Source of the DNA: Onchidella celtica
Lineage: Eukaryota > Mollusca > Gastropoda > Systellommatophora > Onchidiidae
Direction: 5' to 3'
Length of the DNA stretch: 64,000 nt
NCBI GenBank assembly: GCA_963931925.1
Contig: OZ007575.1
Span: 29,113,752-29,177,751 of the forward strand
Below, piece after piece: positions 2,785-52,316 of this stretch; position 1 is the first letter of the stretch, and each line of letters starts with the position of its first letter. Under the pieces are notes generated by a model, which was not told where the DNA came from, ran no database searches, and saw only the letters and a program-made list of their open reading frames with translations. Both the position numbers and the translations under genes were made by a program.

Positions 2785-3682
2785 GGGTTCCCATTGTGCA
2801 TTTTCATGAATCTAAATATAATTGTTGCATGAATTCCTAAAAAAAAATATATGTTTTTTGTTGTCATATTGGAATTGACCATTTCATTTAGATAATCCAA
2901 AGATAACTTCCCATATGGTACCACTTGTAGCTCTACCCAGTCATTTATTTTTGCACACTTTAATCTTGGAATGGCTAAAATAATGTAGTTTTTGTCAATG
3001 TCAGAATCAAGAATGAAGTGAATATATGTGGGGGATTTTCTGATGACTTTAACTGTTTGCCATTGCTGTTTTCTTGTTGCTAATTTTGAAACATTGAAGA
3101 CTGGCAGCTGTGATGATATTTGAGGATAAGGATGTCATTTTCTCCTCTTTGGAAGTGATATGATGATGATAAGATTCCTTGCCATTTTTGACTTTGCTGT
3201 TCTTATAATGTATCTGTCGCCAGCTTCAGATTGGTAAAGCTGCAGTGTCTCTTGAAGAATTTAAATTAAAATATTGATTAGCTTGTGCGTTGTTTCAAGG
3301 CCACTTATTGGGTGGATTAATGTCGGGGTATATGATCATATCAGGTAATATAATTACATCAGGGAAATCCACAATCTGTGAGAGCAAAAAAGAGGGGAAA
3401 AAAATATATTGTCAATAATCCATACTTGGCACAATTTGACACTTGCCGTTGTCAGTCATGCACTTTTTGCTGTTCTCATTTTGCTGTTGATGATTTACTA
3501 AAAAGATAGGAGTTTTCAAGTTGTTTCACGTTTTTGTTTACTAAATCCCCTTACAATGGATATTTCACATTCCTTCAGGATATATACAAGGCCTACTCCC
3601 TGGCCTCTTTGTTGATTGAATTTTTTTTCACATTTCATTGTATCATGGGCCCATCTTGCAAGGTTCTGTATTAGTCTTAAAC
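2785..3682 (+). other. SUPT5H 3' UTR and intergenic DNA
   Basis: Non-coding sequence after the SUPT5H stop. A weak poly(A)-like AATTAAA lies near 3264, so the transcript may end around 3290; this is not certain. The stretch ends in CTTAAAC (3676-3682), the left copy of the target duplication of the transposon that follows. Confidence 0.4.
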
Positions 3683-3697
3683 TAGGTACCACAAACT

Positions 3698-4605
3698 AAA
3701 AATGAGATTTGAATAAATGGGTGATATTTGTGTTTATTTTCATTGTACTTTTGAAACCATGAACAATGCAACAAATTTCATCAAAATCCGTCAACAAATA
3801 AAAAAGTTATGGTTACATAAATTTTTTCGGACTTAGAAAATTTACGGACATTTTGTAAAATATGGTATTTTAGGGTTTTTGAACATTACAACAAAATTTC
3901 TAGTACTCCATTAACACAAACTAATATAAATAATCAAATTAATGTCATATAGACAGTGGTAAACACAGAAAACATTCTGGATAACATCAAATTTTTGGAT
4001 CTCATGGGGGCTCAAACACAGGCGAAAAGTTTAATTTCACGTCAAAAATATAGCAAATCGTCCAATATGCCAAGTTTGATGCCTTGTATTAAGAAAATTT
4101 GATCCATAATTGAGCTAGAACTTTAATAATACAATCTGATACTGCCAAATTATAAGCTCAATTTTTCTTAGCTCAAATGAATGAAAAATGGCAACTTTAT
4201 GTTCCAGTCTATATGCTTCAATGTGCAAAAACGACAAAATGTAGAAAACCGGATCAAATTGCCGGGAAATTGAGCCAATTTTATAAAATTCATAAAAAAT
4301 TAACTAGAAGAGATATCAAGATGAAATAAAAACCATTGTGAAGGGAATTAAAAGCCTTATTTCCTTATGAGAAATACATGCTTCTTCAGTTATTAGAACA
4401 TTTTTGAATGTGACCTCTTTTTTATCATAATTTTTCAAAGAATATCATGAATAAATGCTCATAAAAAAAAATTCTTTTTTTTCAAATCAAGTTAAAAAAT
4501 TATAATGGTTACATCTGCCATTTGATTGATCATTATTTGCATTATGTTAAAAGGCCATTTAAATTTAGAAAACTGCTATATCATTTTTTTATGGGATGGC
4601 ACCTA
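3698..4605. other. 3' non-coding part of the hAT-like transposon
   Basis: AT-rich DNA between the left TIR and the transposase stop codon. It would be the 3' UTR of the minus-strand transcript. No second open frame and no nested element with clear ends is visible. Confidence 0.5.
3733..3738 (-). terminator. Candidate poly(A) signal of the transposase gene
   Basis: The plus strand reads TTTATT, so the minus-strand transcript would carry AATAAA about 870 bases after its stop codon and about 50 bases before the element's end. The position is suitable, but usage is an inference. Confidence 0.35.
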
Positions 4606-7600
4606 CTACACTCTATTCATCTGGGGTGAACTTGATTGTGCCCAGCATTCATCTTGGTCGCTCAAGTCAGTATCAGTATCAGAAAAACTTTTGGTGCTCA
4701 ATATGTCCAACTCCTCTGAGTCTGAGGCTGTGTCCTGACAAGCTGACTCTGAATCTGTGTCTTTTCCAGTTGACTCTAAATCCATATCCTTTTCGCTCTT
4801 TTGGAGATCCTCATCAGACTCATCTGCTGCTGAAATTTTTTCAAGTAGACGGGTATACATCATTTTCCTTGTGCCAGTCACCTTTATGTCTTTCTCCTTC
4901 ATGAACAGCTTTCTGTATTTAAGCTGTGCCTTCAAATCCTCAGCTTTCCCAGTTCTGTACATATGGTCAAGTTCATGCTTGGTGGTGATCAGACCTCCAT
5001 CCGACAACACTTTCGTCAAAAGCTTTGCCTTAATTTCCTGTTCTTGATTCTCCTTCTCTTTCTTCTTCCTCTCAGTTTCTTCTAATCTAGCTTTCTGTTT
5101 CTCTCTCACTGCATCAACAGCTGCATTGTGCTCCTCTCTCAGATGTTTGCCATGCATCCTTCCTGCTTTCATAATTGCATCTCTCTCCTTATCAGTCTTC
5201 TTGCTGATCCACTTGACTGTGTCATTGTGCTTAAACATATTGATGCTGGATCTGTGGTGAGTCGAGGCGTACCTTCTTTTCGACATGTCGAAGTCAAGAT
5301 CACCAAACAACCGTTCTCCAGTGAGATTAGTGAGGGGACATGTGTCAAGCAGCTTTTGAACGTCAGGATGAATCTCTCCCCCGTAGACACCTTTAGGAAG
5401 GAAATCGTTTAGCTGTCGGATCAAGACATCTTTAAACTTGAGGCATATTCTGTGAAAAATGGTCTGGAGGACATCTGTGCTGTAGTCGTCTGATGCAAGG
5501 AAGTCAATGACAGTATCCTTTTTGATGGTAAAGTCATCGAACACTGGGTCTGTATCAGCAGATACTGTGAAGCCTTCTGATAGCCAATGGTCAATGGTGC
5601 TGCTCATGGACTTGACATACTGAGGAAAGCTTCCATATGGTAAGTAGCTATTCATCAATCTCCAGTAGGGACCTGTAAACAGAACATGTGCTATGGCTAG
5701 TGCACCGACAGAAGACATGACCCGCTTGTCTTGTAAATCCAACAGAACACTCTCCAACAGCATATTTGACTTAGGAATCCAATTTGTAAGGAAGTCAACT
5801 ATGTGGTTGCGATGGAAAATGACTGCTTCAGCATTCTCAAATAGATTATTAAATCTGTTATCACGGAAGCTGGTGAACCTGGAGCTGATATTATCTTTGT
5901 GACAAAAAGCCAACCAGTGCTGGCGACATCCACTCTTTTCGTCTCCTCGGGGGCCTAAGACAGATGTTGCTGTGCGGATTAGTCTTACTACGGCATTTTC
6001 CTTGGAATTGGATCCAGAAAAACTTGAGTATGCCGCACTTGCGTCCCGTCCCATGGGGCCTCCCTCTTTGATCAGCTCCTTCTCTTCAGTTGTCACTCCC
6101 TCTTTTGCAGCAGTTGAAAGGCCCAGCAGGAAATGTGCGTTGCAGAAAAGGAAATGTGTACTGGCATCAACATCTTTTTCTTCACCAAGGAAGTCTTTCT
6201 TGTATTGGGCCATTTTCTGATCGAACAACTTCATTACAGATGCCCTGTCTGACATGATGCACTTCAGTTTGGAAATGATCTCCCACATGATTTCATCAGA
6301 GGTCTCGGAACTTGTCCCTTTCTCTTCAGCGGCTTGAAGATGGATTTTGGTCAGCTCCTGAAACAGTGCAACTGACTGTTCTAAAAGAGTACTTGCGTCA
6401 TCTGATGCTATTTCAGCGTAGCCCAAACTTAAGACCTTTTTGCTGCCTAAGATGATATGGCGCTCCAGGAAATTTCTTCTCTGTCTGCTAGTTCCATCTA
6501 GACCATAAGTGAAATGCTCACTTTGCATTATGCTTTCCACTACATGCTGCTTTGCGATATGATGGGCCTCATCCGCAAAATTGATGGCCGTACTCGCTGA
6601 TGGCAATCTCTCAAGGCCAATGTCGTATCCCCAGATATACTTGCAGATGATCTGTACAACCTTTGAGGCATTATCTGCTGATACATTTCCTTCACCTTGA
6701 AGTGCCATGTAGGCCAGTCTGACGTCATTAGTGAACTGGTTGTACTTTGATCCTCTAAACTGAGGCTCCATTCTGTCCTCCGTAGGCATATTCACTGTGT
6801 ACAGCAATGCTTCAGTAACATTCCGTTCCAAATCCAGTTTTTTTCTCAGTTTGCTCTTGTCTGTCTGGACATTTTTAAGTTTCTTCTTAAGACAAGAGAT
6901 GTCTTCCTTTGTGGCCCCAATTTCTTCCTGATGACTAGACATCAATTCTTCCATCTTCACCTTCAAGCTTTCATTCTCTAATAGCAGTTTATCATTGGTT
7001 TCCGCTGCCTTTTCTGTTTCCTTTCTTAGCACTGAATTCAGATGATATGTCCTTGAAACTTTGTACTTCTTGATCTCTTCGTTCAAAATACCTATCTCTT
7101 TCTTCAGCTCTCTGTTCTCCTTGGCTTCTTTCTCTAAGATGTTCAATCTGTCCTTAGCTATACTCATCTCATTCCGGAGTTGTTCCCTTTCTTCTTTCAA
7201 AATCTGGACTTCAAGTTGGAGCAAAAGTTGATCTTGGTTGTTAGTAAGTCGCTCCACCTTGCGCCTCAGTTCTTTTGCTTCTTTTGCATGGTCACAAGTA
7301 GTCTTGGTGTTCATCACTTGTGGATATAACTTCAAAAGTTTTTCTTGAGGTGCATCCTCTACATTTTCATTTTCTTCAAAAAACTTTTCTGAAAGATAAG
7401 AGTTTAATTCCTGAACTTTTTTGGAGTTCTTCAATTTCTTAACCATTTGCAAAGTTTTCAAAGCCTTTCTTTTAATTGTTGCTTCTTTGCATTCACTGTT
7501 GGACAACCGTAGGATCCAACGAATCACAAAAGTCATTGGGAGGCCTTCCATGCTCCTGAAAATGTCTAAAGTCATTACTACATTGTTTGTTACAAGTGTG

Positions 7601-8411
7601 CTGGGGTTTGGTGAGAAGTCTTTAGCATCAGCTAATAAAACACTCCTTGAAAGTGACAATTCAGCCAGGACTGGGGACACGGCATCAAAGTCAACTATTT
7701 CAGACAGGAACTGAGGTTCGCTGATGAAGGTTGACTTCAGGACAGTCTGTATCTTGTGTTGCAGTCTTCCCATTGTCACATCCACACTGCATAGGGATCG
7801 GTACCATGATGTCATCTGAAACATAGAGAGAAAGCTCACATGTATAAATAAGCAAAAGACAGTGATTTACCATGATGTCAATGTCAGAAGTGAAAGTCTG
7901 TCCTTAGCACTGAGCACTGTCAATGGATTAGAAAATGATCCAAAGTACACTGGGAGAAAACAAAATCCGCCATGAGCTATCGCAGGCCTAAGCCTTTTCG
8001 AAAAATTGCTGAGGAGAGAGACAATCACCGTAACAAGATTGAAAGGGGGGGGGGGGTACTCAAGAGAGAGTATGCATACCAGGAGAAAAATAAATTCGCC
8101 ATGAGCTATCGCCAGCCTAAGCCTTTTTAAAGAATTGCTGAGGAGAGAGACAATCAAGAAGACTGGGCATTGGTCATTATAATAGGTGTATAAAGAAAAT
8201 GAAATAAAGACTTACGTCATCAAAACTTGATCCTCCTTCTTGTCTAAGGAGATCCAGTTGTAAGATCAACTTGTTCGTTGAAGAAACAGGTGGGCATGCT
8301 GGTCTTCTACCTTTCCCAGTCATCAGGAACTTGCTTCTCAGAGCATCATATACATCGTCCCCTGTGAAGTTGAAAAAAAAAAAAGACGAAATTGATATTG
8401 GACTTCATTTT

Positions 8412-8442
<31 letters not shown>

Positions 8443-8997
8443 GTGGTGGTGACTAGGAAAGATTTAAAAAAAGAAAAAAGGAGGGGGGGTGCAGGGGGAA
8501 ACAAGTGGGCCAGTTCAAGTGGGGAGGGGTGGGGGCATTCGTTTACACTCTATCGTTCTTCTTCTCTCTCTCTCTCTGTAGCGAGATCTATCCACCTTTC
8601 TTTACCCACAGGTTAACTAAAATACACTATTAAAACTATTTTATTCGCCAATCATCCAAAATGCCAATCTTATTCCATAGATAGATCTAGATCTAGCCCC
8701 ACCCCCCCCCCCCCAAAAAACCCACTCTAGGCCTAGCCTAGGCTAGCCTCGACAGCTGACCTGGTACCTTCGCTCGGCTGTTCCTTCTGTTAACATTACT
8801 CCCGATTATTTACTATGATAAAATAATAAACAAACAAAGAAAGAAAAGTGTTGAACAACAAAATTGAAGTGTGTTCATAAGCAATACTCACGGAGATATG
8901 CGTTTAAGTCCTTAATCTGTTGGGGATTGGGGTTTGCTTCATTCCCAGCGTCGATAGATTCAGTGTTGACGGGAGCTAGTCCCAGCGGTTCCGCCAT
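4606..8997 (-). CDS. Coiled-coil hAT-like transposase, 3 exons, ~1153 aa
   Basis: The coding exons are 8892-8997, 8216-8361 and 4606-7815. Both introns are GT-AG (donors GTGAGT and GTAAGT), and the frame is kept across phase 1 and phase 0 junctions. The start codon at 8995-8997 opens MAEPLGLAPVNTES. Exon 3 alone encodes 1069 residues without a stop. Residues about 258-421 are a long charged coiled coil. The next part looks like an RNase H-type transposase core: Asp524 in YGLDGTS, Asp607 in MSDRAS, then Cys642-x-x-His645 (CNAH), and Glu918 in NLTGERLFGDLDF. This order, and the gap of about 310 residues before the Glu, match hAT enzymes such as Hermes. A basic helix follows, then a SAP-like segment (IKVTGTRKMMYTRLLEKI, about 1061-1078) and an acidic Ser/Asp tail. 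I see no BED finger. It could be the element's transposase or a tamed host gene; the flanking TIRs favour the first. The family name is inferred. Confidence 0.8.
7816..8215 (-). other. Intron 2 of the transposase gene, with internal duplication
   Basis: A GT-AG intron of 400 bp. It holds two imperfect copies, offset by 129 bp, of a block around CGCCATGAGCTATCG (about 7949-8030 and 8078-8156). A G-run lies between them. The copies do not code. Confidence 0.7.
8362..8891 (-). other. Intron 1 of the transposase gene, simple repeats
   Basis: A GT-AG intron of 530 bp. It carries a GA run passing into a G run at 8413-8440, purine-rich DNA to about 8530, a CT run near 8563-8577, an AGATCT-rich patch near 8682-8696 and a C run near 8702-8714. 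The acceptor is preceded by a long T tract on the coding strand. Confidence 0.65.
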
Positions 8998-9599
8998 TAG
9001 TCTTTGTCTTGCCTCTGGGCAAGTGAAAGGTGTGGACACACGTTGACTTTGACGCTCGATACTTTCGTCCAGGAACCACGCAGTATTGTAAAATTATCAC
9101 AAACACATGGAGAATTCCATAACGCGTATTCTGATACCCGTCACGTCGAAAAAAGTAGTCAAATCATAGCGAATTTCTTGATCCAAAGACTTCACTTTAA
9201 CTTTCGATGCCTTTCTTCCAACAACATCCGGACGTGCTTGGTATCCATGGAAAGCTACGCATGCCCTGGTTTCGTATGATGTGCGAAACTACACATTACG
9301 ATTGTCTGGGCCAAAGTACAGCGCGATTTATGAAGCGTATCAAAAATTTTGCTTGCCCGGGGCCGAGCGGGCAGCCCGTAATTGCGTGATGGGAACCTTT
9401 TCTCGGCTAAAATTACGGCAATTTGTTTATTTTGCACTGCACAAAATTATACACCGATGGAAAGGACAAAGATCAAGCTAAACAGTGGTACCATTTTTAT
9501 TATTGATTCTCAAAACGATTTTGAGTACGAGCGATGTGAAATTGACGAAAATCGGCTACCGTAAGCACTACGGGATATTTTCTGCCATCCGCGGCGTGC
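8998..9599 (-). promoter_or_regulatory. Likely 5' region and promoter of the transposase gene
   Basis: This is the 600 bp between the start codon and the right TIR. It is richer in CpG than its surroundings (for example around 9120-9150, 9340-9400 and 9560-9600). No TATA box is obvious. GGTACC, the core of the TIR, recurs at 9488-9493 and also at 8762 and 7800. These could be subterminal transposase sites, but that is a guess. Confidence 0.35.
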
Positions 9600-9621
9600 A
9601 GTCTGGGGTACCTACTTAAAC

Positions 9622-21071: not shown

Positions 21072-26767
<5,696 letters not shown>

Positions 26768-31620: not shown

Positions 31621-32663
31621 TAGGCAGTCCAAACTGAGTTTTAGTTTTTATCACATCTCACCAGTTATTGTCTAATCTGATGAGCTTGCTTTTCCAAGAT
31701 TTTGATACCAAATTTATTATTCTGGCTTAAAGGCTGTGGAAGTTATGGCATTTTCAAAAGTGAAAAAACACTTTGAATTTGCTACCTTTTCCAAATTGCA
31801 CAATAGTCCAGCTTTGACCGCTCATAAAATGACGGTTTATTGAGTCATGGAATTAAAAATTCGTGGTTTGTTAAGTCAAGGGGGTGTACATTACGCTCAA
31901 TTTTTTTCGAGCGGTACAAATATAATACAAGCATTTCATTTTACTATTTTTAGTCATCAGACTTCATTCGACATCATTTTTTTGTGAACTCTTACAGTGG
32001 AGACAATAATAATGTTTTTGGTCTTTGTTTTTAAATTGAAAAAGAGGTCAACCGTGTCACCATTGACTAAGCGTCAGACAAAGGCAAAGAAATCAAGCAT
32101 TGGGTGGGTCTGTAAAAACAGTGGGTGCTTTACGCCGAAACATGCCCGATGTCTGATCTTGGCATACCCTTATAATGGAAAGGCTGAAATTTATTTGCGT
32201 ATAATTTTGATCCTGATCTGTTCAAGTTTCCGCTAGTTTCTCGGTCTACAAACTTTTCAACAAATGATTTTCAAAAGAATTTCAACTTAAAACACTTTGA
32301 AAAATACATGTAATTAAACCTCATTTATCTGGCTTTCTGTGCAAGTTATTTTCAAACCCGTACACAACATCGGCACGACGCTTTGTGACCCTTTATTATT
32401 AGGGGGTCAATTCGGTGGGCGCAGCTCAGATCAGAGCAAAAACGGCAAGACTATGTCCTGTTCAAGCTATAAAAATACTCAGGTAAACCTATTAAACAAT
32501 ACAAAAGGAAGTATATTTTGTCAGAGGAACGATTGAACTTTATTTTGATGCAGGATACATGTCGTTTCACATAAATACACTGCAGTATTAGCCTTGTAAT
32601 GTCGGCCTAAAATTATGCCAAAACGGGATTTTGCTCCTTTTGCGGGGCAGTTTGGACTACCTA
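31621..32663 (+). mobile_element. TIR element, TAGGYAGTCCAAACTG family, copy 1
   Basis: The ends are TAGGCAGTCCAAACTG and the inverse of TAGGTAGTCCAAACTG. The outer TA may be the target duplication. A second copy lies at 49579-50605 in the opposite direction and is recognisably homologous along its length, for example at GATGAGCTTGCTTTTCCAAG here and CCAAAACGGGATTTTGCTCC near the far end. There is no transposase frame, so it is non-autonomous, about 1.04 kb. Confidence 0.75.
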
Positions 32664-32772: not shown

Positions 32773-35700
32773 CTGCTCCAATTGTTCATGCCTTGACGTG
32801 GAGGAGTGGCTTGCGTGTCCCAGTGATCCCAGGAGCTAAGCCAGCGGAGGCCTCGTGCCCCTGATAGCTTTAAGCAAGCTGGACAGGTCATGGGGGAAGG
32901 ACCAGACAAGATTGAACAGGTTCGGGGGTTGGGCGTAGGGCTAACAACCCTACCCTGAAATCCTTGTTGGGGTGACCTTACTTGGAGAAACAAAAATCGT
33001 TACGGAAACAGCAACATGGAAAAACCAACGTTCTGGATGTGATGGACCTTCTGAGTACCTCGCGACTCGTATGAATGCAAGTAGTGAAAGCCGAAAGGAA
33101 ACTGCTAGCAGGATGAAGGAGGAACTGAACACCGCCAAAACCAAGACCAGGATTGGATACTGGAATGTTAGAACAATGTATGAATCGGGTAAGTTAGCAC
33201 AAGTAACATCAGAGATGAGGCGCTACAACCTATACATCCTGGGTGTAAGTGAGAGCAGATGGACTGGATCTGGAAGGATCAAAACATCCACTGGAGAAAC
33301 CGTTCTCTACTCTGGAAGAGAGGATGACCAACATCATGGAGGAGTAGCCATCATCCTAAAGAAAGGACTGGACAAATGCTTGTTGGAGTGGAAACCAGTC
33401 AATAGCAGACTGATGAGGATGAGGATGAAAGGACAACACACAAACATCACTGTCATCCAATGTTATGCACCAACCAACGAAAACGACAACAACAGACAAA
33501 GACGACTTTTATGAACAACTCCAGGGGGAAATGGACATGACGCCATGGCATGATCTCATCATTGTCATGGGAGACCTCAATGCTAAGGTAGGTAAAGATG
33601 ATATAAATTATGAAAGAGTAATGGGAAAACATGGAACTGGAACAAGGAATGACAATGGAGAAAGGCTTGTGGATTTTTGTGCCTTGAACAACTTAGTCAT
33701 CGGAGGGACCCTTTTCACACACAGAGAAATTCACAAACTCACATGGAATTCTCCAAATGGAAGAGACAAGAACCAAATAGACCATTTGATGATCAACGGT
33801 ATGTGGAGACGATCCCTTCTAGATGTGAAAGTGAAAAGAGGAGCTGACGTAGCCAGCGACCACCATCTAGTGGCAGCACTTATCAAAATTAAACTGAACA
33901 AGACCGGAATCAAGACATCAAAGCAAAGACACCTTAATATTCAGAAACTGAGAGATGCAAGTGTTAGAAATGCCTTCAACATACAAGCCAAGAACCGATT
34001 CCAGGCTCTACGAGAGTCTGATAAGAACAACCCTAATGAAAGAGGAATCGATTCAGAGTGGAAAAGAGTAACTACAGTGTACACAGAGAGCAGTGTAGCC
34101 TGCCTTGGATTTAATGAGAAAGGGAAAAGCAAGGAGTGGATCCAACAAAGAACATGGGATGTGATCGAGGAGAGGAAAGTCATGAAAAAGAAACTCCTAC
34201 AAGTGAAATCGGAAAGGCTGAAAGAGAGGTACCAACATAGCTACACAGAGTTAAATAAGAAAGTGAAGAGACTAGTAAAGAAAGATAAACGAGAAGCCAT
34301 GGAACAGCTAGCGGCAGATGCGGAGGAGGCAGCAGCAAGAGGAGAACAGGGTAAGCTCCACAAGATCACTAAGCGCATTTGTGGCAAGTACGGTGGAAGA
34401 CCAAGTGTTCCAATCAAAGACAAGAATGGGAAACTACTGACTACAGAACGAGAACAGGATACACGCTGGACAGAGCACTTTCAGGAATTACTAAACCGGC
34501 CACCACCTGAAGATAGAATAATAATACAAGATGCTGCTGAAGACCTTGACATCAACATAGATCCACCAAAGAAAGAAGAGATAGTGGCAGCAATAAAGAG
34601 CCTAAAAAACAGCAAAGCCCCAGGAAAAGACAACTTGACTGCAGAACTGTTCAAAGCAGATCCGGATCAGTCAGCCACCATCCTTCAGCCACTGTTCACA
34701 GCTATCTGGGAAGCAGAAGCAGTACCAAAGGGCTGGAATGAAGGCAGAATAGTGAAAATACCCAAGAAAGGAGCAGTCAGCGATTGCAACAACTGGCGTG
34801 GTATCACTCTCCTTTCTATACCCAGCAAAATCCTTGCCAAGATCATTGTGCAACGTATGTCAGATGCTGTGGACAAGACACTGAGAAAGGAACAGGCCGG
34901 ATTCCGAAAGGGGAAAGGATGCATTGACCAGATCTTCACACTCCGAAACATCATAGAACAGTGTTCAGAATGGCAAAGGCAGCTCTATGTGAACTTCGTT
35001 GACTTCGAAAAGGCCTTCGACAGCATCCACAGAGAGAGTATATGGCGCATTCTTCGGCACTATGGGATTCCCAGCAAGCTTGTTGAACTCATCAAAAGCT
35101 TTTACAAGAACTTCAGTTGCAGTGTCGGAAACAGTGATGCATCCTTTGAAGTGAAAACTGGTGTACGGCAAGGATGTGTGATGTCAACAATTTTGTTTAA
35201 CCTCGTAATCGACTGGATTATGCGGAAAACTACAGAGGATGCACCAAGAGGCATCAGATGGACACTCTTCGACAACCTAGAGGATTTGGACTTTGCGGAT
35301 GACCTTGCACTATTGTCACATAGTCACCAACACATGCAAGATAAGACGCAGAGACTACATAATTTTGGATGCAAAGTAGGCCTTCGGATTAGCCAGAAGA
35401 AGACAGAGATTATGACCCTAAATGTAGACACTCCAGCACCAGTGCAAGTAGATGACAAGAACCTCACCACGACGGACAAATTTAAATACCTTGGTAGCAT
35501 TATCAGACCAGAGGGTGGCACAAAGGAGGACATCCAAAGTAGGCTGGGAAATGCAAGGGCTGTCTTTCAAAGTATGAGCAACATCTGGAAATCGACACAA
35601 TACGGCATCAACACCAAGATCAGACTGTACCAAAGCTGTGTCCTATCCACACTCCTGTATGGATCAGAGTGTTGGCGAATGACAGAAGGTGACCTCGCCA

Positions 35701-36080
35701 AGTTGTCTTCCTTCCACACCACATGTCTTCGTAGGATTCTCCGCATCTTTTGGCCAAACAAGATTTCTAATCAGGAACTACTAAGGCGATGCAAGCAAGA
35801 AGAAATAGCCAACATCATCACGAAGAGACGATGGAGATGGCTTGGACACGTGCTGCGAAAGGAAGCAAATTCTATAACCAAAACAGCACTTCAGTGGACA
35901 CCGGAGGGACGGCGCAAGCGAGGCAGACCCAAGGCAACCTGGCGGAGAACAATCGAGGCAGAGATGAAATCCTTCAATCACTCATGGGGAACTCTCGCAA
36001 AGATGGCCCAGGACAGACAGGGCTGGAGATCCTTTGTTGCTGCCCTAAGCACCAGTGGGTGCAACAGGAAATAGTAGTAG
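32773..36080 (+). mobile_element. RTE-clade LINE (SR2-like), near full length
   Basis: A 3.3 kb non-LTR retrotransposon. It has a 5' non-coding part of about 200-300 bp, an endonuclease plus reverse transcriptase frame, and a short (TAG)n tail at 36071-36080. It is flanked by a 16 bp target duplication. The single frame with N-terminal endonuclease, the small size and the microsatellite tail all fit RTE. The protein blocks resemble Schistosoma SR2 as I know it. Only one frame break is visible, so the insertion is fairly recent. Confidence 0.9.
32972..36074 (+). pseudogene. RTE endonuclease-reverse transcriptase, one frameshift
   Basis: The endonuclease part shows RIGYWNVRTMYESGK, ILGVSESRW, HHGGVAIILKK, CYAPTNE, MGDLNAKVG and the ASDHHLV block. 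The reverse transcriptase shows GKDNLTAELFK, PKGWNEGRIVKIPKKG, NNWRGITLLS, KEQAGFRKGKGCIDQI, VDFEKAFDSI, TGVRQGCVMS and the catalytic LDFADDLALL near 35290. The tail has WLGHVLRK and GRRKRGRPKATWRR. The frame shifts once, around 33485-33500 in an ACA/ACG-rich run: the first frame stops at 33514 and the second runs open to 36074. Otherwise no stop is seen. This enzyme nicks the target and copies the element's RNA there. Some LINEs live with programmed shifts, but a single-base change is likelier here. Confidence 0.9.
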
Positions 36081-44423: not shown

Positions 44424-45090
44424 TATACCCGGGGTACTCGGATAGCCAGCGCACTTGTGTCAGGACTACGTTAGAAACATGCTTCTCACAGGTGTTAATT
44501 CCAGAATTCCATTTTCCTCCGTCACAGGTCGCACCTCACGTGGGGGAAGTAGGCCAATTTATAAATCCCTGTCCTACACAGGGGTTGCATTCCTGTCGTC
44601 TGTCAGATTCTAAACCGAATGATGTTATATTGTTTTTCTTTTTGCACTTCCTGGTCGACAACGTGGAGGCAATGAAGGCAGGGAAATGAAACAATATTTA
44701 TTGATCTGGCAGACAACAGATATATTTCACAATTATCATGCGGGGGTCTGTCAGATGCCCTCCCCCGTGTGTAAAATTGCGGTGGGTCTGTCAGGCCACC
44801 CGAAAGTAAAATCAGAGGCTGAAGGACCGAATGGAAAATAGCAAAAAGCAATCATTCTTTATTGGGAGTCATCCTGTATTAAATGCTTTCAAAATATTAG
44901 AAAACAAGTTCAGCATTTTTGGGCAGTGTGGAGCAGTGTTTGGCAACAAAACAATGCCATATGTCAAATGTTCTATTATTTTGCATTGTGGGGGGGGGGG
45001 GGGGGGGGGACACAGCTGGAAAAAAGGGGATGAGAGAGGAAATAACTGGTCACTGAAGTCGAAACTCAAAACATTTGCACCAGTTATCGT
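44424..45090. other. Upstream region of SCFD1
   Basis: No repeat with defined ends. It contains a perfect G20 run at 44990-45009. An ATG at 44831 is in frame with SCFD1, but the encoded extra stretch crosses the G run and has no family similarity. I treat it as non-coding or 5' UTR. Confidence 0.5.
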
Positions 45091-45175
45091 ACTTCCGGAA
45101 GTGCCACGTTCTCCGTTTACTGTGGGCCAAGAAAAAGAACTGCTGTTCATTCGTCACCGTTTCAAGATGGCGACT
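45091..45175 (+). promoter_or_regulatory. SCFD1 core promoter: ETS palindrome and YY1-like start
   Basis: ACTTCCGGAAGT at 45091-45102 is a perfect palindrome of two ETS/GABP-type sites. CAAGATGGCGAC at 45164-45175, over the start codon, fits the YY1 consensus (AAGATGGCGGC). The pair is typical of TATA-less promoters of vertebrate housekeeping genes, with the start site a few tens of bases before the ATG. Function is inferred. Confidence 0.5.
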
Positions 45176-47077
45176 ACTTTACAAGATAAACAGATAGGTG
45201 CCTTGAAACGAATGCTGAATTTTAATTTGCCTGCGACGAAGACGTCTAATGCTGAACCGCAATGGAAAGTTCTTGTATATGACAGATTTGGTCAGGATAT
45301 TATATCGCCACTTTTGACCATTAAAGAATTGAGAGACATGGGCGTCACCTTACATCTCAGTCTCCATTCGGATCGAGATCCCATTCCAGATGTTCCAGCA
45401 ATATATTTTGTCATGCCTACTGATGATAATGTTCAACGTATTTGCAGAGATTTTCAGAATCAGCTGTATGAGTCATACTATCTTAACTTTATTTCGGCTA
45501 TCTCAAGACAGAAACTGGAAGACATTGCCCAAGCTTCTCTTCAGACAAACACTGTTCAGCAAGTCTCAAAAGTATTTGACCAGTATTTGAACTTCATTTC
45601 CCTTGAAAATGAATTGTTTGCTCTCAGGCATCAGGACAGAGATTCTATTTCATATTATGCTATTAATAAAGGGGATGTGAAAGATACAGAAATGGAATCA
45701 ATCATGGAGAGTATCGTTGACAGTTTGTTCTCTGTATTTGTTACCCTCAGTATTGTTCCCATTATACGTTGTCCACGTGGGAATGCTGCAGAAATGGTTG
45801 CAGAGAAGCTGGATAAAAAACTGAGAGAAAACTTAAGAGATGCTAGGAACAGTTTGTTCACTGCTGATGGGGTACCAGGACAATTTAGTTTTCAAAGACC
45901 TCTTCTTATTATTTTAGATCGCAACTTGGATCTAGCTACAATGCTCCATCATACGTGGACCTATCAAGCTTTAAGCCATGATGTATTGGATTTGAAACTA
46001 AACAGAGTGGAAATTGAAGAAATAAGTGATGATGGACCCCATTCCAATTCTACTGCAAGAAAGCAGAGAACGAAGAAGAAAACCTATGATCTCTCTTCTC
46101 GAGACAAGTTGTGGATGTCTCAGAAAGGTCATCCATTTCCAGAAGTTGCAGAGGCTGTCCAGGAAGAGCTCAATGCATACAGGCAAGAAGAGGGAGAAGT
46201 GAAAAAGTTGAAAGCTGCACTTGGTTTAGAAGGTGAAGATGACACAGCTATTAGTATGCTCTCAGATAACACTGCACGCTTAACTTCAGCTGTCACATCA
46301 TTGCCTGAATTGTTGGAGAAAAAACGTCTGATTGATATGCATATGAACATTGCAACAGCACTGTTGGAGCAAATTAAAGCGCGGAAGCTTGATTCCTATT
46401 TTGAAATAGAGGAACGCATGATGAGTAAATCAACTTTGAACAAATCACTTATGGACATGATCTCAGACCCAGAAGCCGGGAAACCTGAAGATAAAGTGCG
46501 TTTATTTATTATTGCTCTTATATGTGGACCACCCATGTCAGAAGCAGAGATTGACCAATACTGTGTGGCTTTGCAGGCAGCCAATTGTGATATTTCAGCA
46601 GTTCAGTATGTCCGTCGTTGGAAATCATACACAAAATTGCAGGCTCCAGCAAGCCAGTACATGGGTGGAGGCATCAGTTCAACAAGCATGTTCTCAGGAC
46701 TTCTTTCAAAGGGATCGCAGTTTGTTATGGAGGGAGTGAAAAATCTTGTTGTTAAAAGCCATAACCTTCCAACCACAAGGATAGTGGATGCATTGATGGA
46801 ACTAAAGTCACTACCAGACGCTGATGACTTTCGTTACTTTGATCCTAAACTTTTACGTGCTGATGCTTCATCTATACCACGAAATAAGTCTCCTTTCCAA
46901 GAAGCTTATGTCTTTATGGTGGGTGGCGGCAATTACATTGAATTCCAAAATCTGATGGATTATGTGAAGTTCAAGTCAACACCTACAGCTCAAAAGAAAA
47001 TTGTGTATGGTTGCAGTGATTTGGTAAATGCCTCACAGTTTCTGAAACAGCTTTCACATTTAGGACAAGAAATGTAG
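45167..47077 (+). CDS. SCFD1: SCFD1 / SLY1, Sec1-Munc18 protein, single exon
   Basis: SLY1 binds syntaxin 5/18-type SNAREs and drives fusion of COPII and COPI vesicles between the ER and Golgi, acting on the cytosolic face. The frame gives 636 residues from ATG 45167; human SCFD1 has 642. Near-identical blocks run the full length: LKRMLNFN, YDRFGQDIISPLL, LHSDRDPIPDVPAIYFVMPT, NQLYESYYLNFISAISR, VFDQYLNFISLE, KLDKKLRENLRDARNSLF, QFSFQRPLLIILDRN, HHTWTYQALSHDVLD, ISMLSDNTARLTSAV, LPELLEKKRLID, GSQFVMEGVKNLVVK, RYFDPKLLR, VGGGNYIEFQNLMDY and the C-terminal QLSHLGQEM. There are no internal stops and no introns, whereas vertebrate SCFD1 has many exons. It may be a functional retrogene or a lineage that lost introns. 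Confidence 0.95.
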   Translation: MATTLQDKQIGALKRMLNFNLPATKTSNAEPQWKVLVYDRFGQDIISPLLTIKELRDMGVTLHLSLHSDRDPIPDVPAIYFVMPTDDNVQRICRDFQNQLYESYYLNFISAISRQKLEDIAQASLQTNTVQQVSKVFDQYLNFISLENELFALRHQDRDSISYYAINKGDVKDTEMESIMESIVDSLFSVFVTLSIVPIIRCPRGNAAEMVAEKLDKKLRENLRDARNSLFTADGVPGQFSFQRPLLIILDRNLDLATMLHHTWTYQALSHDVLDLKLNRVEIEEISDDGPHSNSTARKQRTKKKTYDLSSRDKLWMSQKGHPFPEVAEAVQEELNAYRQEEGEVKKLKAALGLEGEDDTAISMLSDNTARLTSAVTSLPELLEKKRLIDMHMNIATALLEQIKARKLDSYFEIEERMMSKSTLNKSLMDMISDPEAGKPEDKVRLFIIALICGPPMSEAEIDQYCVALQAANCDISAVQYVRRWKSYTKLQAPASQYMGGGISSTSMFSGLLSKGSQFVMEGVKNLVVKSHNLPTTRIVDALMELKSLPDADDFRYFDPKLLRADASSIPRNKSPFQEAYVFMVGGGNYIEFQNLMDYVKFKSTPTAQKKIVYGCSDLVNASQFLKQLSHLGQEM

Positions 47078-49460: not shown

Positions 49461-49578
49461 AATGCCAAGGAAAGGAGAATGTTCGCAACTATTGTGATGA
49501 GACACATTGCTGAGAATAGGTGATGATATTATTTTTCCTTTCCAAATTATACATCTGGTTCATTTCCCAAACTGAGAT
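49461..49578. other. Short spacer between repeats
   Basis: Nothing recognised. Confidence 0.4.
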
Positions 49579-50605
49579 TAGGTAGTCCAAACTGCCCCGT
49601 TCACCTGTCGTTAAAGGGGCGAAATCCCGTTTTGGCATAATTTTAGGCCAACATTACAAGGCCACTGATGCCATGTTTTATGCAAAGCGGCATGCATCCT
49701 ACATTAAAATAAAGTTCAGTTCTTCCTCAGTCAAAATATACTATCTTTTGTATTGTTTTATGCGTGGAGCTGTGTGTTTTTATTGATTAAGGAAGATGCA
49801 GTCTTGCTATCTGACCCCCTGATAAAAAAGGATGGCAGAGCGTCGTGCTGATGAAGCGCACGTGTTTGAAAATAACTCTCACAGAAAGCCAGATATATAT
49901 TATTATAAGCTTTAATTCAATGTATTTGTCATCTTGTTTTGAGTTGAAATTCCATCAAAAATCATTTGTTGAAAAGTTTGTTGACCAAGAAACTGGTGGA
50001 AACTTGAATAGATCAAGATCAAAATTACACAAATGAACTTCAGCCTTTGTATTATTATAAATGTGTGCCAAAATGAGACGTGTGTTAGTGCACAGCAAAG
50101 CGCCGACTATTTTTATAGAGTCATCCAATGCCTGATTTCGTCACCTTTGTCGGATGCTCAGTGCTAAGTCAATGGTTTAATACGAGTGACCTCCTTTTCA
50201 ATTAAAAAAAACATTTTTATCTCCCTTGTAAGAGTTCATAAAAATTTGACGTCGGATGACTAAAAAAAAGGAAAATGAGATGCTTGCATTGATTATATTT
50301 GTACCCCTCGAAAGACATTGAATGCAATGTTCACCCCCTTGCCTTGGAAATTGAGAATTTTCAATGCCGTGACTCAGTAAATTGTCATTTTGGGTGGTCA
50401 ATTATGTCATGCAGCTTGCAAAAGGTACAAATTCGAGGTGTTTTTTCACTTTTGAAAATGCCGTTATAACTTTCATAGCCTTTTAAGCCAGAATAATAAA
50501 TTTTTATTTGGTACAAAAATTCTTGGAAAAGCAAGCTCCATCAGATTAGACAGTAACTGGCGAGTTATCATAAAAAGTAAAAATCTGTTTGGACTATCCT
50601 ACCTA
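49579..50605 (-). mobile_element. TIR element, TAGGYAGTCCAAACTG family, copy 2
   Basis: TAGGTAGTCCAAACTG at the left; a slightly altered inverse ending in CTACCTA at the right. It is homologous to 31621-32663 in the opposite orientation and similar in length (1.03 kb). Non-autonomous. Confidence 0.75.
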
Positions 50606-52316
50606 CTGAGATATGAGCATTTTGGATACTAGAGCAAATTTCTGCAAATGATAAGTAACCTAATTTCAAGCACACTAATAATGTGTAAAATAAAAAATTG
50701 CCCTTGATTTCATCTTTATGTAGGCCTAAAGCACTGTATTATGAGAATTTGCCGAAGAAAACTTTTTTTTACATGTTCCATTAACTAACATTTTATCTTG
50801 CTTTCTTGGACAGTAGTGTGCGAGTTAGTTTTGGAGTGTAAAATACAATGTATTGGAAGCGGTGTGCTTCGTGTTATTTATTGTAAATTTCAACATGTAC
50901 ATAGAGACGAAGTTTTCAGGAAGTGTTGCCATGAAGACGAAGTTTTTCATCTTAACATTTTTATTTAATGTTTAGTCTTTAGGTAATTTGTAGGCAATTT
51001 AGCACATTATTGGACTGCATATTTTGGAACACATTTGATACATGTGAGGTTGTCTGATGCCTAACACACTACATGTGTACATGTACTTTAGTCCTCAATG
51101 GACTTTTAGGGTAAAATTACAGGCCATCTGCATTTATTGGTTCTGAAAATGATTGATGGTAGAATTCATTCTGGTCCTGCAGTTAAATATGTAGGTACAG
51201 AGGCAAGAATGTCAGATTACAAGGCATTGACTAGTTTGTGTGCTTGCAGCTTATGTAAGGAGGAATATATATTATATATATTATATTCACTATATTGAAT
51301 CCATCACTTTTCAAGCCAGGAGGTTTCTCAATACTAACAGCAAAAATACATGTATATCATATAAATTGAGAGCTGGGGTTAAGGAATACAACAATGAAAG
51401 TCTAAACATTAAAATTTTGAAACATTTATTATTAGCTTTCCATTTAAAGATTAATTTAGATCATCTTTTTCATGTCTTGTAAGCATTACGCACCAGCTTG
51501 ATGTTAAGTGACAACCTGAACTCATCTTTTCTCTTTTGTTCTCTTTAGTTTGTTTGCTGGTTGCAAGTGAAAGCTGTGCTTGCTGTGGGTAGGGCGTTTA
51601 TTTTGTCATTTATGGTTGCCTGACTTTGATGTTCTTGCATTTTGTGCTTTGTCATGCATGTGACATAAATTTACATTTTTTCTTTTTTGAGCGTCAAGCT
51701 GTGTTGACTTGACTTGCTCACTAACTAGGAGCATATCGTCTGTATCAGTCACAGATCTGTGTGACAGTATAGTTTTATATATACATATATTATGTTCTGA
51801 GAGACCACACTCCTGCCTGTGAGTATTGTAAGTGACTGCTGTATTAAATTTAGGACAAACAACCATTTCTGTACTTAGTTTACTTTCATCATTTTTAGGG
51901 TACTGCAGTCTAAGGATACCAGCAGACTACAGAACTCATTTTCTCAAAACTGAATTTTTGGACCTGGCTGTTCCGATTTTACCAAAAATCCACTCAATAA
52001 AATAATTTTGTGTACATGTATGTCACTAGTCAATATCAGTTGGGTCAGTTAAATGTGGTTATTTTTAAAACATTCAGAATGTGGCCTTAGACTAGAGTGG
52101 CACAGAGATAATTGTGAGCTGTGTTAGGTAAAACAAAAACAAAAAAGAAGTCCAACGTGCATTATTTTTCTACTTTTAACCTGAATGTCCAATAATTAAT
52201 GCTCTAAATCAGTCAGCTCTGCTGCATCTTTTCATTTGTTATGTTTCTTTTTTCATTGTGTTGTCCACGTCAGTCCTACATTTTTGCATAATTGTGGTAT
52301 TTTTTTTTTTGGCTAG
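50606..52316. other. Intergenic, nothing recognised
   Basis: AT-rich with many ACATGTA words. No gene or bounded element. Confidence 0.4.

Follow-up and report, generated by a model that had tools for sequence, protein, structure and literature searches.

The 64,000-nucleotide stretch of Onchidella celtica DNA analysed here, hereafter the window, contains an element of 5,932 bp (3683-9614) that lies between two identical direct copies of the 7-bp sequence CTTAAAC, and that carries matched inverted repeats at its ends and a long open gene between them. We consider it likely that this is a complete cut-and-paste DNA transposon, hAT-like and probably autonomous, whose gene would encode a CxxH-class DDE transposase built around an RNase H-type core.

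The two copies of CTTAAAC form a target site duplication (TSD) at 3676-3682 and 9615-9621. Immediately inside them are a left terminal inverted repeat (TIR) of 15 bp, TAGGTACCACAAACT (3683-3697, forward strand), and a right TIR, TAGGTACCCCAGACT (9600-9614, reverse strand), which are identical at 13 of 15 positions and have no mismatch in their first eight bases (TAGGTACC). When the window was scanned for inverted ends identical at 13 or more of 15 positions, immediately flanked by an exact 7-bp repeat and spaced 150-12,000 bp apart, this element was the sole pair returned. The same scan of 40 random windows yielded a mean of 0.125 pairs (largest 2) and never a pair that flanked the gene (0/40), and a simulation of the flanks only also placed no such pair around the gene (0/300). 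The combination of good ends with an adjoining 7-bp repeat is rare and beyond chance. These results bear out the original prediction in two respects: that the element is intact and bounded by TIRs and a TSD, and that chance is an unlikely source of the ends and repeat around the gene.

A second insertion with similar ends is also present in the window. Its copy B, about 1 kb long with TAGGTA ends (49579-50605), is flanked by a 7-bp duplication of its own, CTGAGAT (49572-49578 and 50606-50612). Copy A (31621-32663) has TAGG ends, is 75% identical to copy B in reverse orientation and shows no clear flanking duplication; the homology between the two copies stops at, or no more than 4 bases from, their TAGG ends, and neither copy has a transposase match. 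Across the whole window, TAGG[CT]A and its reverse complement form 60 end pairs at 100-12,000 bp spacing, two of which, the gene-bearing element and copy B, have exact 7-bp flanking repeats. Among the same 60 pairs, exact flanking repeats of 5, 6 and 8-12 bp number zero, as do those of 4 bp, and there is one of 3 bp. The second base is T and the sixth is A in both duplications, CTTAAAC and CTGAGAT. Because copy B has its own perfect 7-bp duplication, the length of 7 bp appears real, and the true duplication is probably 7 bp, not a decayed 8. It had been proposed beforehand that the repeat was either 7 bp or 7 of 8; the first option stands and the second is unlikely, an 8-bp duplication being rejected since both insertions with a visible duplication show 7 bp.

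Beyond the ends themselves, no significant sequence similarity links copies A and B to the gene-bearing element within 300 bp of either terminus. In eight comparisons of kinship involving these copies, one reached 2/200 shuffles when the ends were included and 27/200 when the first 16 bases were removed, and the other seven were at chance. The exact end patterns of copies A and B had no match in IMG/VR. The same predicted enzyme might move these 1-kb copies.

The element's gene lies on the minus strand and is modelled with three exons, which together encode a protein of 1,153 amino acids without a stop. The predicted exon 1 (modelled part, 8892-8998) has its ATG at 8997-8995 and a GTGAGT donor, exon 2 (8216-8361) has a CACAG acceptor and a GTAAGT donor, and exon 3 (4606-7815) has 1,069 open codons and ends in a stop codon at 4606-4608. 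The putative introns would span 8362-8891 (GTGAGT/CACAG borders) and 7816-8215 (GTAAGT/TTTCAG borders); the second contains a 75-bp direct repeat, 89% identical, at 7953-8027 and 8082-8156. An opening as long as exon 3 has a chance of about 1.6e-31 at this composition, and the remaining two frames of its strand hold 76 and 82 stops. The earlier claim of an open gene with two good introns is therefore upheld by the 1,069-codon exon and by plausible, though predicted, splice borders. The gene reads toward the element's left end, with 923 bp of the element after the stop codon and 617 bp before the ATG. Measured from the stop codon, candidate ATTAAA/AATAAA signals occur at 481, 573 and 870 bases, and a search upstream of the gene detected no TATA[AT]A box.

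The predicted protein looks like a DDE/CxxH transposase in its layout, with a hAT-like C-terminal signature. The proposed catalytic residues, assigned by motif and encoded on the minus strand, are a first Asp, D524 (GLDGTS, codon 6496-6498), a second Asp, D607 (MSDRAS, codon 6247-6249), and a Glu, E918 (TGERLFG, codon 5314-5316), with a CxxH motif between D607 and E918 (C642-N-A-H645 in FCNAH, 6133-6144, minus strand). Their order was found by eye, without a supporting alignment or fold. Shuffling the protein 5,000 times produced the D-D-CxxH-ERxF order 57 times, and produced it together with the following KR once; as the pattern was picked after inspection, these figures are an indication and not a test. 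Near the C-terminus, residues 1045-1078 (4834-4935, minus strand) form a stretch that we take to resemble a SAP domain; the protein has no Pfam match to SAP.

No Pfam cut-off was reached by the full 1,153-residue protein, including those of the hAT, hAT C-terminal dimerisation, BED, P-element, THAP and other transposase domains, and the only match listed to E 10 was to DUF1048 (E 0.029), in a coiled-coil part of the protein. We attribute this match (E 0.026-0.029, and 0.0087 with part of the protein) to chance, together with those to a Tn5 dimerisation domain (E 0.23), to Cas4 (E 0.042) and to weaker Pfam entries, all of which fall under the curated cut-offs. The BED zinc finger is N-terminal in hAT transposases and is common there, not universal; a separate Pfam search of the first 110 residues found no BED match either, and CxxC is absent from the protein. 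Against the PDB, the whole protein matched nothing up to E 1, and matches of the protein core to Spot 14 and STAT3 (E 0.83-1) are at chance level. Single-sequence AlphaFold models of residues 423-1111 (mean pLDDT 40.3) and of residues 495-700 (mean pLDDT 42.6) were unusable, so the RNase H fold is presumed from the motif layout; the second model is all helix with no strand, so an RNase H core finds no backing there either.

These features suggest how the element would move. The product of a single spliced gene would be a CxxH-class DDE transposase, with an RNase H-type core and a C-terminus like that of hAT enzymes, perhaps multimerised by an N-terminal coiled coil. The transposase would bind the TAGGTACC ends and excise the element and, should it truly belong to hAT, would be expected to leave hairpins on the flanking DNA, by analogy with Hermes and Kat1, for which hairpinned flanking DNA is described in passages of PMC4763223. 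Both ends would then be joined across a 7-bp stagger in the target, and gap repair would create the duplication. The element may still be active.

The likeness to hAT is clearest in the C-terminal half of the protein. The proposed D, D, CxxH, E order is that of hAT, and the long stretch between the second Asp and the Glu spans 311 residues in the element versus 324 in Hermes. The ERxF motif is followed by Lys or Arg at 12-14 residues from the Glu (K930, R931 and R932, at +12, +13 and +14; 5272-5280, minus strand), near the position of the TIR-contacting Lys and Arg residues of hAT enzymes. According to passages of PMC4763223, Hermes K585, R586 and R588 contact the TIRs, and Kat1 K907, R909 and R911 (+12, +14 and +16 from E895) are their counterparts; excerpts of PMC6027215 give E572 as the catalytic Glu of Hermes, with K585, R586 and R588 at +13, +14 and +16. 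Unlike Kat1 and Hermes, which both have Arg at +16, the element has Ala at +16 from E918. Passages of PMC3706591 describe a CxxH/DxxH motif that follows the second Asp in hAT, Kolobok, P and MuDR. The ends are short and start with TAG, and the symmetrical T..A of the target recalls the T2 and A7 preferred in the 8-mer target of Hermes (part of PMC8721813). Compared with the hAT end consensus (T/C)A(A/G)NG, as it appears in an excerpted source, the element's TAGGT fits at four of five positions, its fifth base being T instead of G.

Other features set the element apart from hAT. Judged by position and motif without alignment, Hermes W182, two residues after the first Asp, is replaced by Thr, and D607 is followed by no RW like Hermes R318-W319 but only by RF at 730 and 738. 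The distances from first to second Asp and from second Asp to the Cys are 83 and 35 residues in the element, versus 68 and 17 in Hermes and 67 and 25 in Kat1, whose second Asp was taken as D377, a residue on which passages of PMC4763223 disagree. The element is 5.9 kb long, whereas 2.5-5 kb is stated for hAT in an excerpt, and its 1,153-residue protein has no detected BED or hAT dimerisation domain. It duplicates 7 bp where hAT duplicates 8 bp; the relevant part of one published account allows hAT duplications of 4-8 bp. The original prediction of a hAT transposase thus agrees with the residue layout and the ERxF-x8-KRR tail, but draws nothing from Pfam, where hAT, BED and P-element domains were all missing. 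Membership in hAT is partly supported, by the residue layout only, and is unproven.

A second, less likely placement is that the element represents a separate, unnamed animal superfamily within the CxxH class, standing between hAT and P and defined by 7-bp duplications, TAGGTA ends and a coiled-coil N-terminus, with 1-kb non-autonomous relatives in the same genome. In such a superfamily, the long coiled-coil N-terminus would replace the zinc finger.

A rather unlikely explanation is that hAT is a more distant relation of this intact transposon than the P superfamily or a CxxH-class lineage of intermediate position. Pfam detects neither THAP nor any further P-element domain in the full protein, and its ERxF-x8-KRR tail is consistent with hAT; the missing Hermes tryptophans speak for this placement. 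So does the duplication, as the P superfamily has 7-8 bp duplications and the element has 7. The element was compared with Galileo, a P-superfamily element that, according to passages of PMC4168063, makes mostly 7-bp duplications with T2 and A6 (GTANTAC) and has the residues D327, D415, D449xxH452 and E642. The element shares the 7-bp duplication with T2/A6 and, in its proposed residues, the same order, with CxxH in place of DxxH, and the spacing agrees well between the two Asp residues (83 versus 88 in Galileo) and between the second Asp and the Cys or Asp (35 versus 34). In contrast, the distance from the second Asp to the Glu is 311 residues versus 227 in Galileo, which also differs, in the same passages, by its THAP domain and long ends. 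In its spacing, the protein therefore looks P-like in its front half, where both distances are near those of Galileo, and hAT-like in its back half, where the distance to the Glu is near that of Hermes.

It is improbable that the gene belongs to the host, possibly as a domesticated transposase, and that old ends have survived around it by accident. In favour of this, the gene is present as a single copy within the window. However, domesticated transposase genes tend to lose their ends, and here a tight, perfect duplication adjoins matched ends, a configuration observed once and never reproduced in the 300 simulated flanks. Still less credible is that unrelated short repeats happen to surround a real, non-mobile gene. 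The end pattern by itself is not rare, with 12 matches at up to 3 mismatches versus 12.5 expected, and a less strict scan, for TAG-starting ends identical at 7 or more of 12 positions and with exact 7-bp repeats, returned 6 pairs versus 2.9 on average over 10 random windows, so that it finds nothing above chance except the two elements described here. Good ends with an adjoining 7-bp repeat are nevertheless rare, and copy B shows the pattern again.

An element of the Dada or the Kolobok/piggyBac type is the poorest fit of all. TTAA is the target duplication of Kolobok and piggyBac and abuts their ends; CTTAAAC includes TTAA, but not adjoining the element's ends, and copy B's CTGAGAT lacks it. 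According to passages of PMC3706591, Dada elements share with this one duplications of 6-7 bp, a large gene with introns and a DxxH motif of the D/CxxH class, and occur in oyster; they differ in an N-terminal CCCC zinc finger and in that those with clear termini sit in small RNA genes, the U6 and U1 families having no TIRs, whereas the element has TIRs and a protein lacking CxxC, in a window with no tRNA and no Rfam match at gathering score.

Beyond the element, the window holds a LIX1-family exon at 26261-26767 (forward strand; positions 120-249 of the 249-position Pfam profile, E 7.2e-73), a non-LTR retrotransposon encoding endonuclease and reverse transcriptase at 33429-36074 together with 32945-33514 (forward strand), whose two overlapping frames are apparently frame-shifted, and a Sec1-family protein at 44810-47077 (forward strand; Pfam E 2.6e-128, near-full profile), which is one open frame and possibly an intronless copy and which had no tblastn match in plasmids. 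These other genes are in keeping with animal DNA.

Relatives of the protein were sought in IMG/VR, in GTDB genomes (single-protein scans), in plasmids and in phages (tblastn), and none was found. The scans relied on six short peptide patterns each, which detect close relatives only, and most of the material in these collections comes from prokaryotes or viruses; this result accordingly says little about animals. Among the literature matches listed, no 7-bp hAT element from an animal was recognised, Repbase Reports and most subscription papers being outside the scope; the gene-bearing element may already have been described. If it is just an uncatalogued hAT family, it has little importance beyond transposon annotation. 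The duplication length, however, mirrors how the transposase's active sites are arranged on the target DNA. A hAT-like enzyme that duplicates 7 bp and in which no zinc finger can be detected, encoded by an intact gene, would test how this length is set, would inform the relationship between the hAT and P lineages, and might yield a new insertion tool.

If the element is a hAT-like transposon, as we favour, its duplication has a precedent. Duplications of 7 bp within hAT are already known: passages of PMC12730594 describe hAT5, hAT6 and hAT7 variants with 5-, 6- and 7-bp duplications, where hAT7 comes from rust fungi, clusters with fungal hAT and with plant Ac/Tam3, and includes twenty families that carry a TET/JBP gene. 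The element differs from hAT7, which is fungal, in having no Pfam match to such a gene, and resembles it, as compared by description and not by sequence, in combining 7-bp duplications with a hAT-like predicted transposase.
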